Shown: in pieces, positions 454 through 38,744 of the stretch | Layout of the letters: every line of letters starts with the position of its first letter | Position numbering within the stretch: the stretch's first letter is position 1 | Translations under genes and position numbers: made by a program | The notes under the pieces: generated by a model | Seen by the model: only the letters and a program-made list of their open reading frames with translations | The model's database searches: none | Told to the model about the DNA's origin: nothing | From: a virus | Virus record (IMG/VR): IMGVR_UViG_3300043445_000139 | Span: 1-39,220 of that record | Strand: one strand, 5' to 3' | DNA length: 39,220 nt

Positions 454-528
454 GGCACCGTAGCTCAGTGGTAGAGCAGGGGACTCATAAGCCCTTGGTC
501 GGGTGTTCAAATCACCCCGGTGCTACCA
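454..528 (+). tRNA. tRNA-Met (CAT anticodon)
   Basis: The sequence folds as a cloverleaf. The acceptor stem is GGCACCG (454-460) with CGGTGCT (518-524), the D arm GCTC/GAGC (463-477), the anticodon CAT (486-488) in loop CTCATAA, the T arm GGGTG/CACCC (501-517), and CCA is encoded at 526-528. The anticodon stem shows an A-G apposition (483/491) next to the loop. CAT can mean elongator Met, initiator Met or lysidine-modified Ile. The first acceptor pair can form as a G-U wobble, and I favour elongator Met. From base 484 onward the gene is the phage attachment core, so its 3' part is phage-supplied after integration. Confidence 0.93.
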
Positions 529-531
529 TCT
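484..531. repeat. attL core (48-bp direct repeat)
   Basis: The 48 bases from the anticodon loop of tRNA-Met through the encoded CCA plus three further bases recur exactly at 38545-38592. Identity stops at both sides (A483 against C38544; G532 against T38593). This is the usual pattern for a tyrosine integrase that uses a tRNA 3' end as attB and restores the gene. Confidence 0.95.
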
Positions 532-681: not shown

Positions 682-1341
682 TCATGCGGCGTTCCGCGTT
701 ACGGTTGGTGGGTCAGGATCGGCACGGGCGGCAAGCTCGATCGGGTGCACACCGATTCGCCACAGCAGCTCCAACACCAGGGCCTGGGCGCGCCGGGACA
801 GGGGAGTAGCGACGTCCCGATAGGCGCAACCGTCGAGCAGTCGGTCGACGCGGGCCATGGACGTCAAGGGCGGCAGGCAGCGGTCGGCCGGGATCTGGCC
901 CAGCCACTCCCGCGCGCGGGCAGCCACCTGGGGGTTGGTCGGCCACCTGTTCGGCAGTGCATAGGCTGCGGGCAGCCGCGACAGATCCTTCATCACCCTG
1001 GTAAAATCCTGAAAGGATGGGCCGAAGGGCAGGATGACCAGGTCAGCGAAGGACTGGACCAGCTTGTCCAGTTCGGGCCTGGCCGCGGCGCCGTCGAGCA
1101 CGACAAGCAGCCGTTCTTGCTGGTCGAGGTGTTCAAGAAGCGCGGGGAGGTCGCTGAGGTTGCGGCCATCCAGGGGGAGGTATCGGCGCAGACCGCCGAC
1201 GGGGTCATCCTGGGGGTCCGTGGTGATGACGGCCGCATCGATTCTCTGGGGCAGGCTGCCGGCGCCATGACCGATCAGGTGGGCGACCGTCGTCTTGCCA
1301 GTCCCGCCCTTTTCACCGACGATCGCGATCAGCTTAGCCAT
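682..1341 (-). CDS. parA: ParA-family partition ATPase
   Basis: This 219-residue protein has the deviant Walker A motif of ParA/MinD ATPases at residues 11-18 (KGGTGKTT), a switch-like ITTDPQD segment near residue 40 and a hydrophobic Walker B-like strand LLVVLDG near residue 80. The length fits the small ParA class without an N-terminal HTH. Such ATPases move DNA cargo together with a centromere-binding partner. The start is supported by GGAG seven bases upstream and by an 8-base overlap with the RHH gene before it, implying translational coupling. It sits between attL and the integrase, so it would border attP in the excised circle. A role in partition is inferred from family and partner. 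Confidence 0.88.
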   Translation of the reverse strand: MAKLIAIVGEKGGTGKTTVAHLIGHGAGSLPQRIDAAVITTDPQDDPVGGLRRYLPLDGRNLSDLPALLEHLDQQERLLVVLDGAAARPELDKLVQSFADLVILPFGPSFQDFTRVMKDLSRLPAAYALPNRWPTNPQVAARAREWLGQIPADRCLPPLTSMARVDRLLDGCAYRDVATPLSRRAQALVLELLWRIGVHPIELAARADPDPPTVTRNAA

Positions 1342-1594
1342 AGTGCTGCTCCAGAATTAACAGGATGAGCTGCTGTCGTGTGATCGTCCGGCCGGCGGCC
1401 TTACTTCTGTCCGCAGCATCATCCACCAGCTTGCCCATCATCTTCGCCGGCACCCTCAGCGTGATGGGACTGGTATCGCTCGCTTGCTGGCCTCCAGTCT
1501 GAGGTTCGGGCGGCGGCACAGCCTGAGCGCCCCCTGTCGACAGACCGGCAAGGCCGGTCTTCAGTTTCGTGAAATCGCGCGCTTTTCCTGCCAT
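1334..1594 (-). CDS. Ribbon-helix-helix DNA-binding protein, probable ParA partner
   Basis: An 86-residue protein has a flexible, Pro/Gln/Gly-rich N-terminal half. A C-terminal fold follows from about residue 42: a strand ITLRVP, a helix MMGKLVDDAADRSKAAG and a second helix starting TITRQQLILLILEQ. This is the ribbon-helix-helix layout. Basic flexible tail plus RHH is the architecture of ParG-type centromere-binding proteins that stimulate small ParA ATPases. The gene overlaps parA by 8 bases, with the RHH gene first, the reverse of the usual parA-parG order. Directly upstream is an array of 8-bp boxes, the natural size of an RHH operator subsite. Confidence 0.75.
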   Translation of the reverse strand: MAGKARDFTKLKTGLAGLSTGGAQAVPPPEPQTGGQQASDTSPITLRVPAKMMGKLVDDAADRSKAAGRTITRQQLILLILEQHYG

Positions 1595-1612
1595 CGAAAC
1601 ACCGTAGAGCTG

Positions 1613-1708
1613 AAGCGTTAAAGCACTATAGCGCTACGATGCCGTGACGCCGAAGCGCTATGAATGCATAGCGTCTTAACGCTAAACATCTTTAGCGGCA
1701 TAGCGCGA
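1613..1708. promoter_or_regulatory. Array of 8-bp-phased boxes (candidate operator/centromere)
   Basis: Eight recognisable boxes related to TAGCGCTA start at 1613, 1621, 1629, 1653, 1669, 1677, 1693 and 1701, all in one 8-bp register over 96 bp. Examples are AAGCGTTA, TAGCGCTA, AAGCGCTA and TAACGCTA. The slot at 1645 (TGACGCCG) is a weak match, and slots 1637, 1661 and 1685 do not match. RHH proteins such as MetJ bind tandem 8-bp boxes. A -10-like TATAGT (1625-1630, minus strand) lies in the array, with a poor -35 TTCGGC (1649-1654). Binding would therefore autoregulate the RHH-parA pair and could serve as a partition site. Confidence 0.7.
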
Positions 1709-1714
1709 TGATCC

Positions 1715-2863
1715 CTAGCCGAGCTGTCGTTCCATGGCCGCGGCGATTCGGTTGTCGTCGGCCGGGTCGGTCCAAAGGTGACCGTAGAGGTCCATGGTCA
1801 TCTGCAGCGACGCATGACCCATCAGGTGCTGCACCCGCTTGGGCATCAGCCCCTGCTCGATCCATAGGCTGGCAGCCGCGTGGCGCAGGGTATGCGGCGT
1901 GAAGATCGGCTTGCCCGTCGCCGCGACCAGCCCTGCCGTCTTCATCAGCGGCACCCACCAGCGGTGATAAACGTTGGCGTGGCTTTCGACGGTGCCGGCG
2001 CCGGTCGGAAAGACCAGGTGCAGGTCACTGACGGGTGCGTGCTTCAGCCAGTCCTTCAGGGCGCCGACGGCGCGGGGGCCGAGCGGCACGCGGCGCCGGC
2101 CGGCACGGGTCTTCGGCGCCTTGATGCTGCCGTACTGGTCGGCCGCCTGGCTGACGGTCAGGTTTGGGTGCGCGCCGTGCAGCACCAGCGCGCCGCGGGG
2201 CAGGCCGCGCAGCTCCCCCATGCGCAGCCCGCAATAGAGCATCAGCAGGACCATGGAAAGGCTGCGCCCGTGGTCATCGGCCTTGGCAGCCGCATCCACC
2301 AACGCCTTGAGATCGACCTTGGGCGGGATCTCCACCCTGCCCTCCTCGTCCCCGTCGCCCTCGATCCGGATCCCGTCGCCCGGGGAGCTGGCCAGCCACT
2401 CTCGACGCCGGCACCAGGACAGGGCCATCTTGACGGTCTTGAGCGCTTTGCGGGCCATATGGTCCGACAAAGCGAGCTGCAGGTCGGCGGCGAAGGCCTC
2501 CACGTCCGCGGGGCGAAGGCGGGTCAGCAGTACCTTGGCCAGCGGCCGGCCCTGCAGATGACAATCCAGGTGGGAGCGGTACTTGGCATAGGTGGCGCGG
2601 GCGCGCTTGCCGGCGCGGACCTTCAGCTCGAACTCATCCAGCCAAGCGTAGCAGCCTTCCTGGACCGTGCGGCTGGCGCGGTCCGGGACGTGGTTCCCCG
2701 TCTGGATCTGCCCCTCGATCCGGACTCTCTCCGTATCCGCGTCCCGCTTCAGGGTGAAGTTCTTGCGGTGCCGGTTGCCTTGAGAATCCACATAGGACAG
2801 CTGCCAGCGCTTTACGCTGGAGCCGTCCCTGCGGGTCCGTGTAATGGGGCGGACTGTAGCCAT
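1715..2863 (-). CDS. int: Tyrosine-recombinase integrase
   Basis: The 382-residue protein has all catalytic positions of the tyrosine recombinase family: Arg214 (CGLRMGEL), Lys251 in the beta-hairpin region, His324/Arg327 (HTLRH), His350 (LMGH) and Tyr360 (DLYGHL). The N-terminal part carries an arm-binding-like beta domain (residues 10-50) and a core-binding SAM-like domain (about 65-160). It would catalyse integration into and excision from the tRNA-Met core. No clear Shine-Dalgarno precedes the ATG. The bases just upstream repeat a GCTAC/GCTAT pentamer, partly like the boxes downstream. It lies at the end of the minus-strand early operon. Confidence 0.95.
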   Translation of the reverse strand: MATVRPITRTRRDGSSVKRWQLSYVDSQGNRHRKNFTLKRDADTERVRIEGQIQTGNHVPDRASRTVQEGCYAWLDEFELKVRAGKRARATYAKYRSHLDCHLQGRPLAKVLLTRLRPADVEAFAADLQLALSDHMARKALKTVKMALSWCRRREWLASSPGDGIRIEGDGDEEGRVEIPPKVDLKALVDAAAKADDHGRSLSMVLLMLYCGLRMGELRGLPRGALVLHGAHPNLTVSQAADQYGSIKAPKTRAGRRRVPLGPRAVGALKDWLKHAPVSDLHLVFPTGAGTVESHANVYHRWWVPLMKTAGLVAATGKPIFTPHTLRHAAASLWIEQGLMPKRVQHLMGHASLQMTMDLYGHLWTDPADDNRIAAAMERQLG

Positions 2864-10840: not shown

Positions 10841-13800
10841 CCTCTGTCATAATGGGCCGACCGGCCCGCGGAAGCGGCCCGACGCTCCCGCTCATCCAGC
10901 TGCCGCGTGACTTCGCGGGCGATCTCCTGAGCCGTCATGCCCGGGGCAGCGTGAATTGTGATCTGGTAGGTGCTGTGGTGTTCGACAGGGTCTGCGGCCT
11001 GTGCCGCTGCTGCCGCAGCCGGGCTGTTTGCGGGATCCGGCACCTGCACCACCACCAGCGGCGGGGCAGATACCGCGTTGGTGTTCGACGGCGTTTCGAT
11101 CCCGATCGGCGGAAGGAGTTTGTCACGGGTGAGGACTGTTTGCGTCGGCAGGGGCCGTGCCTCCCCCGTCTGCGTCCCCGTCTTCGGGTCCGGCAGCGGA
11201 TTATCGTTGGTGACCACGGGCGGCGGCGCCAGGGGACCAGCTTCCGCCTTCTGCGCCCCTGTCTTCGGGTCCGGCAGCGGGTTATCGCTGGTGCCCACGG
11301 GCGGCGGCGCCAGGGGACCAGCTTCCGCCTTCTGCGTCCCCGTCTTCGGGTCCGGCAGCGGATCATCGTTGGTGACCACGGGCGGCGGCGCCAGGGGACC
11401 AGCTTCCGCCTTCTGCGCCCCCGTCTTCGGGTCCGGCAGCGGATTATCGTTGGTGACCACGGGCGGGGGAGGCATCGGCGGTCCTTCCTCCCCCCCGAAC
11501 ACACCGTTCCAGGATTCCCGGACCCACCCGATGACGCGGCCGATCTGGCCCATCATGCCATCGAAGGCGGACCACACGACGCCCACCAGGTCGAGCAGCA
11601 GCCTTAGCGGCGTAAGTGCCAGGTTGACGGCCCAGGCGATCCCCTGCCCCACGGCCATGCCGGCGGCGGCCACGCCCGACAGCTCCTCCCCCGTCATCGA
11701 CACAGGTGTCAGGAGGTCGCTGAAGACGCTGCCCACCCACCGGAACGCGCCGGCGATCGCGGCTCCGATCGGAGCGAGAGGGGCCAGTGACGTCTTGAGC
11801 GGAGCGAGCCCGGCCGTCAGCCCGTCCCAGAGCCCGCCGAAGAAGGCCTTCAGGGGCTGCCAATACCGGAAGATCAAGATGGCCGCCGTCGCGATGCCCG
11901 CGACGATCAGGCCTACCGGATTGGTCAACAGCGCGAGGGACATCGCCCGCGCTGCGGCCCCGACCAGCAGGAACAGACGGGGAAGCACCATCAGCCCGCT
12001 GCCCAACAGACGCAACCCGCCGATGGCGCCGGCTTTCCAGGCCGCGCCGCTGAACAGGGCGGCCCGGGCATTCACCAGCATGGCCATCGTATTGGCCCGC
12101 GCCGACGCTGTCGACGCCCATAGGGCGGCGGTTGCGGCCGCTATCCGACCGGGCAGGGCCAGCAGTCCACCGCCGGCGGCCGTCACCCATGCCCTGGCAG
12201 CGACCAGCGTGGCCTTGACCGATGCCCAGGTGGCCGTCGTCCAGGCGGCGATCGATGCGGTACTGGTGGACTGCCATAGCGCCTGGCCACGCAGTGCAGC
12301 GGTCTTCGCCACGGTGGCAACGGTGCCGGCATGTGTCGCCGCCGTGCCGGCGACGGTAGCCACACGCGCCTTAATGGCGGCACCTGTCAGCAGCTGCTGG
12401 GCGTGGCGGAGTAGCAGGGCGCCGCCGACCGCGAACGTCCAGCCGTAGCCGAGGGCGACCGCCGCGACCTTGAGAGCGATCAGCCCCGCGGCGGCGGTGA
12501 CGGCGAAGGTGGTCAAGCCCGGGAAGGTCTGGCTCAGCCACATGGCGCGGTCGGCAACAGCGGCCAGGCCCGACACCAGGATGTTGAGCGGCGGCAACAG
12601 AATCGTCCCCAGGGCAGCACCGACGTTGACCACCCTGTTGCGCAGGATCTGCATCTGCCCGGCGGATGAGGCGACAAAGCTCTCATACGAGTTGTCGACA
12701 ACGCCGCGGCTGCTGTTTGCAAGGTCCCGCTGAGCGGTGGCCAAGCCGCCGATGTTCTGACCCAGCAGCATCACCGCCTTGATGCCCTCATCCCCGAAGA
12801 CCTCCCGCAGCTTGTCGCGGAGATCCTGTTCCATGGTACCGCTGAAGCCGCCGATGGCGTCGGACATCGCCTGCATCGTGGCCGTGACGTCGAGCTGACC
12901 GTCTGCGGTCCGCACCAAATCGAAGCCGAATTCCTTCGAAGCCTTCGACAGTTGGGCCAGGGTGGCAGACAAGGCTGTACCAGCCTCAGACCCCTGGATG
13001 CCCGCTGTGTTCAGCGCACCCAGCAGGGCCAGCCCCTGTTCCAGCGCGATGTTGTTCCCGATCAGCGCGGGCGTGGCGGTCTTCATGCTTTCGCCGAGCT
13101 GCCCGAAATCGCGGATCTGGTACTGGAACTGGGTTTTGGTCAGGAGGTCAGCAATACGCTGCATCCGCTCTTCGCTTGTGCCGGCGAACTGCTTGCCCAT
13201 GTTGTTGAAAACGGTGGCCATGACCTCGCCGACCGCTTCGGGCGCGCCGGCGGTGACGGTCGCCACCTTTGCGACCATGCCGGCGGCGGCGGCGGAAACC
13301 GATGCCTCAATCCCGGCCGAGTTGAGGGCGTACTGGATGTCCAGAACCTGGTTGGTGCTGGCGAGACCGGACCGGCTGAACTGGATTGCCGCCTCTCGCG
13401 CCTCCACCATCGCCCGGGCGTGGGCCTGGGCCGCGGTCTCCCCCTGTTTGGCGGTGGCCATAATGACGGTACCCAGGCGCACTTGGGCAGATTCGAGCTG
13501 CACCGCGGCGGCGATCGGTGCGGCCAAGCTGAGCGCCAAAGCGGCGGCTTCGGTGACCTGTCCGCCCAGTTCCTCCCGTCGGGCGACGTTTGCTTGCCCA
13601 GCTGCACGCATATCGGCGGCGCGCTTCATTGCGGCGGCCTGCCGCTCGGCCGCTGCTGTCGCCGCGGCGATCTCCTGCTTAAGTCGCCGCTGCTCGCCGG
13701 CGAGGTCGCCCGTCTTGACACCGGCGGCGGTAAGCTGGCCGCGCATCTTCCGCAGCTCCGCCGATGCGCGTTCCTTGGCAGCGGCGGCCCGGCTCACCTC

Positions 13801-38544: not shown

Positions 38545-38592
38545 CTCATAAGCCCTTGGTCGGGTGTTCAAATCACCCCGGTGCTACCATCT
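38545..38592. repeat. attR core (48-bp direct repeat)
   Basis: An exact copy of 484-531, the 3' part of the tRNA-Met gene displaced by integration. It lacks the 5' half of the tRNA, so it is not a functional tRNA. Host DNA begins after it. Confidence 0.95.
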
Positions 38593-38650: not shown

Positions 38651-38690
38651 TTTCGGATCAGGCCTCGGATCGGCCCGACGCCCGTTCCCC

Positions 38691-38744
38691 ACTATCATCC
38701 GGGATCATCCACTATCATCCGGGATCATCCGGGATCATCCGGGA
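38691..38744. repeat. 10-bp tandem repeat in the host flank
   Basis: Five consecutive decamers of the form ACTATCATCC or GGGATCATCC start at 38691, 38701, 38711, 38721 and 38731, then decay at GGGACC. It lies between attR and the chemotaxis gene and is outside the prophage. Function unknown; probable simple-sequence expansion. Confidence 0.85.

Follow-up and report, generated by a model that had tools for sequence, protein, structure and literature searches.

The operators of MetJ are built of palindromic 8-bp boxes in tandem, to which an RHH dimer binds. Among plasmid partition systems, the centromere of TP228 is an array in which short degenerate boxes are separated by AT-rich spacers, and its ParG protein also binds an operator (PMC7308502). 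In the system of pSM19035, full activation of the ATPase needs at least four contiguous boxes (PMC9499535); the array described here has fourteen cells. It lies in a window of 39,220 nucleotides (the whole stretch of viral DNA that we analysed), in front of an operon encoding a small protein of 86 aa and a ParA-type ATPase. We read the array as the site to which the 86-aa protein binds, serving as both operator and centromere of a ParF/ParG-like (type Ib) cassette in a prophage, and we give this reading as a whole a probability of roughly three in four.

The gene pair

The two genes of the cassette overlap on the same strand:

1334..1594, minus strand: 86-aa small protein, the proposed centromere-binding protein, RHH-like by its predicted beta-alpha-alpha topology
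682..1341, minus strand: 219-aa ParA-type ATPase, with a deviant Walker A motif (KGGTGKTT) and a Walker B motif (LVVLDG)

Both reading frames are intact, and the ATPase keeps its catalytic residues. The ATPase matches the PHROG ParA-like partition protein as well as profiles of ParF and ParA; against NCBIfam ParA_partition (NF041546) it scores 34.9 bits, with the cut-off at 180, and is thus related to that family, not a member of it. The best PDB matches of its AlphaFold model (pLDDT 80.5) are TP228 ParA-ParB and ParF, so that the predicted structure shows the fold class of a partition ATPase. A small ParA with a deviant Walker A motif and this fold is what characterizes the ATPase of a type Ib system.

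The model of the small protein (pLDDT 62) begins with a basic N-terminal tail that is disordered and includes a short helix; an extended stretch and two helices follow. A fold search with this model gave no match. Neither the HMM libraries (Pfam, NCBIfam) nor a PDB sequence search supported an RHH identity, a profile comparison with RHH_1 proteins set the right strand in register at a probability below 1%, and a search for ParG (PF09274) returned a single uninformative match. Since the topology is of low confidence and the libraries lend no support, the RHH fold is one that we infer from the model. Of the ‘RHH-ParA operon’ proposed in the earlier note, the ParA-type ATPase and its operon with a small gene therefore stand, and the RHH part is backed by predicted topology, not by homology.

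The box array

Two features lie directly upstream of the small gene:

1597..1708, minus strand: array of 14 consecutive 8-bp cells, the proposed operator and parS-like centromere
1625..1630, minus strand: candidate -10 element TATAGT, a weak consensus match within the array, 30 nt upstream of the start codon

De novo segmentation placed all 14 cells of 1597-1708 in a single 8-bp register and ended the array 2 bp short of the start codon of the 86-aa gene. The consensus, TAGCGCTA / GCTATAGC, amounts to a GCTA half-site every 4 bp in alternating orientation. Eight cells in a common register, at 1605, 1613, 1621, 1629, 1653, 1677, 1693 and 1701, match TAGCGCTA in at least 6 of 8 positions; 3000 dinucleotide-preserving shuffles of 1595-1714 yielded a maximum of 4 in-register cells (mean 1.1), none reaching the real number. 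A phase statistic that needs no consensus gave z = 11.2 to 11.4 for period 8 (0 of 3000 shuffles as high) and 7.7 for period 16, a multiple of 8, with the remaining periods from 4 to 20 falling within -1.5 to 1.6. Period 7 had z = 0.2, and heptads of the pSM19035 type are thus not present.

Across the 39-kb window, the array is the top 8-bp-phased stretch, at 6.5 sd above the window mean (runner-up, 4.0). A weight matrix built from seven plasmid arrays only found its best in-phase site, on both strands of the window, at 1627-1706, with a score of 50.3 (mean -141.6, sd 24.3). The array is real and far beyond chance, and the at least eight boxes in one 8-bp register that had been noticed earlier are confirmed, now within an array of 14 cells. 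Array-like boxes (ACGCTATG, ATGCTATG) also occur at the integrase start codon, at 2861-2879, outside the 8-bp register and in a number close to chance; the small protein could conceivably bind there too.

The promoter on the minus strand that had been suspected inside the array is less certain. TATAGT is indeed present at 1630-1625, but it is accompanied by a poor -35 element, and a standard promoter scan did not report a minus-strand promoter in the window array. In the closest relative (L014), the hexamer as far from the start codon as TATAGT in the window is TATGAT, again with a poor -35 element. A good sigma-70-like promoter, TTGAGG-17-TATAGT/CATAGT, lies within the arrays of five other relatives (L003, L004, L007, L025 and L026), which fits autoregulation.

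Relatives of the cassette

A tblastn search with the ATPase found matches in 18 of 72,556 plasmids. The same search of plasmids with the small protein found nothing, and direct searches with single sequences did not detect the pair in viral contigs or INPHARED phages; an alignment scan of viral contigs contributed L022-L026. In nearly all of twelve plasmid regions, the small gene is followed by the ATPase gene with a 4-bp overlap, the annotation being mostly hypothetical proteins, and homologues of the 86-aa gene hold the same position in the relatives. Replication genes near the cassette encode RepA (L006), TrfA (L009) or replication initiation/replication proteins (L005, L008, L010). L022, which is ‘plasmid unnamed5’ of Azospirillum thermophilum (NZ_CP029360), is a phage-plasmid: it has genes for portal, capsid, tail and lysozyme, and its cassette lies beside repA; in L024, terminase and portal genes adjoin the cassette. 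The closest relative, 67% in the ATPase, comes from Azospirillum oryzae, where VirB8 and TrbI genes lie on the same contig. Near this A. oryzae cassette (L014, 2119-2901) is a gene for a DUF1883-TIR domain protein, a possible defence gene. In Robbsia andropogonis p4 (L008, 2501-3130), the ATPase frame contains a stop codon within the range taken, beside a strong array (z8 22.8).

The family is rare: at E 1e-30 it turned up in 2 of 398 Pseudomonadota genomes, namely the one on which the search was centred and a second with an orphan chromosomal ATPase gene that has neither small gene nor array. A literature search found no study of this gene pair. Plasmid stability determinants that have been tested on P. 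savastanoi plasmids include ParA/RHH pairs (PMC6354349), which may or may not belong to this family, their plasmids not being among its matches. Most likely, this is a cassette that the prophage borrowed from plasmids, of a ParF/ParG-like family undescribed so far. The family is small, scattered and mostly unannotated; its plasmids come from several proteobacterial classes and, in one case, from an acidobacterium, and a phage-plasmid and this integrated prophage have it as well.

We compared the phase at 19 family loci, including the window, taking the higher value of two calculations of the period-8 z value (z8) with different stretch lengths. This was at least 10 in 13 loci (the window, L003, L004, L007-L013 and L024-L026) and about 4 to 6 in three (L006, L014, where the array is short and weak, and L023), and in the other three (L002, L005, L019) the array is unclear. 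As in the window, the arrays sit before the small gene; they have up to 31 cells, and many stop 2 to 10 bp from the start codon. Cells with dyad or near-dyad symmetry occur in many loci (TAGCGCTA, TAACGTTA, GTTATAAC), as would be expected of boxes for a symmetric dimer. The locus thus has the repeat array of a type Ib system, located at the operon promoter and conserved with the gene pair apart from the three unclear loci.

Among 11 other small ParA genes used as controls, z8 was at most 2.8 in eight and 6.5 to 7.0 in three near-identical ones, so such arrays are not exclusive to the family. These three (L029, L032, L033) belong to a different viral ParA group, in which the 8-bp-phased stretch lies some 110-120 bp ahead of the ATPase gene. 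A second 8-bp-phased array downstream of the ATPase gene, at 3122-3201 in L006 (A. thermophilum phage-plasmid) and 5457-5536 in L023, indicates that some cassettes are flanked on both sides.

The earlier note had suggested looking for the same array upstream of homologous gene pairs, and it was found there on plasmids, a phage-plasmid and viral contigs, with the plasmid-only matrix predicting the window array. That note named related phages that have the genes but no phased boxes as evidence against its reading; such a case is a minority exception here, 3 of the 19 loci lacking a clear array.

The prophage setting

Three further features define where the cassette lies:

484..531, plus strand: attL, a 48-bp direct repeat that covers the 3′ part of a tRNA-Met gene (454-528)
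38545..38592, plus strand: attR, an exact copy of the 48-bp repeat at the other end of the integrated prophage
1715..2863, minus strand: tyrosine integrase, directly upstream of the array, a neighbour outside the module

The exact 48-bp repeats, together with P2-like structural genes in the window, indicate an integrated P2-like prophage, in which the cassette occupies the space between integrase and att site. The flank past attR has up to 79% identity to genomes of the bacterial family to which A. oryzae belongs, which gives a rough host placement. The cassette was absent from 27 related viral records, six of them found by integrase and the others by tail sheath, some perhaps being fragments, and from this absence it appears to have been inserted between integrase and att. 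In five of the six integrase relatives, the record stops 3 to 278 bp past the integrase and shows nothing farther, which fits an integrase that is usually the last gene. Of the features that mark phage-plasmids, the window has phage genes and a partition-like pair; its integrase and att repeats show integration, and among the window genes scanned we recognised no plasmid-type initiator, only a phage primase.

Two other repeats were seen in the window: an 81-bp tandem repeat (3.8 copies, 93% matches, 11162-11466) in the tape measure gene, and a 10/20-bp tandem repeat, ATCATCCGGG, at 38689-38744 in the host flank just beyond attR.

Function of the array

By analogy with TP228 and pSM19035, and judging from homology and anatomy, dimers on contiguous boxes would both build a partition complex and repress the operon. 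If the small protein has an RHH fold and binds this DNA, its dimers would sit side by side on neighbouring 8-bp boxes and coat about 112 bp. Such a coat could shut off the two-gene operon by repressing its promoter, which reads out through the array, and this patch of protein and DNA could double as a centromere for the ParA ATPase to carry across the nucleoid. The small protein would stimulate ATP hydrolysis through its basic N-terminal tail. The cassette, apparently inserted between integrase and att of a P2-like prophage, would most likely stabilise an excised or plasmid form of the phage. The earlier proposal of a parS-like site that is also an autoregulatory operator is supported by the arrays that accompany homologous pairs and by the embedded promoters; the case for the operator is strong, and the centromere is likely by comparison with the known systems. 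Counting against this reading are the missing library and fold matches of the small protein, the three loci with no clear array, the weak promoter of the window, the short and weak array of L014, and the integrated state of an element that has its own integrase.

The array might, on another account, be an operator and nothing more: the small protein would repress the operon (and perhaps the integrase), and the ATPase would act in excision or positioning, with no partition. In favour of this, the array comes right up to the start codon and spans the region of the promoter, and the prophage is integrated, so a lysogen needs no partition. However, a simple operator needs far fewer cells than the 14 found here or the maximum of 31 in relatives, the gene pair is mainly plasmid-borne and often beside rep genes, and the fold of the ATPase is nearest to partition ATPases; we therefore consider this account unlikely. 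Smaller still are the chances that a partition cassette once useful to a plasmid has become a non-functional passenger of the prophage. The 27 related viral records that lack the cassette would agree with this, as would the failure to recognise a plasmid-type initiator among the window genes scanned, but both genes have intact frames, the ATPase retains its catalytic residues, and strict phase persists over 112 bp of array.

The position of the array between the integrase gene and an att end also brings to mind arm-type integrase sites, or iterons of a replication origin. Yet the att core is about 1.1 kb away, with two genes between, and most array-bearing relatives are on plasmids with no integrase gene annotated beside the cassette. 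No 8-bp phase was seen in the tested stretches that follow two related integrases (L055, L057), and the relatives' arrays precede the small gene, not rep. Both identities, which we regard as highly improbable, were rejected on these grounds.

Under our preferred reading, in which the array is operator and centromere of a partition cassette, an integrated prophage might use the cassette during a plasmid phase, to protect its circle once excised, or to interfere with related plasmids. More tentatively, in a reading that we hold to be less likely than not, the P2-like phage may alternate between a state integrated at tRNA-Met and a plasmid state partitioned by this plasmid-derived ParA/RHH-like family with its 8-bp palindromic arrays, and the array could interfere with host plasmids that carry the same cassette. 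The box code itself is readable (GYTA half-sites in 8-bp cells), which makes the putative centromere predictable from sequence.

Comparison with known systems

MetJ differs from the system proposed here in being a metabolic repressor with no ParA partner. The delta-omega-parS system of pSM19035 is similar in its contiguous one-dimer boxes, which overlap promoters and are the centromere there (PMC9499535), but these are 7-bp non-palindromic heptads at six parS sites, whereas the window has 8-bp near-palindromic cells in one array. ParF-ParG-parH of TP228 likewise pairs a small ParA ATPase, the source of the top structural matches, with a small protein that has a flexible N-terminal tail. In contrast to TP228, the small gene here comes first and the ATPase gene second, near-palindromic GCTA half-sites fill contiguous 8-bp cells, and the score of the ATPase against NCBIfam ParA_partition, 34.9 bits, falls far short of the cut-off of 180. 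On plasmid NZ_CP029360 of A. thermophilum, which also has genes for capsid, portal, tail and lysozyme, the gene pair is the same and the arrays are likewise 8-bp-phased; the cassette there lies beside repA on a plasmid record, whereas that of the window belongs to an integrated P2-like prophage with att repeats.
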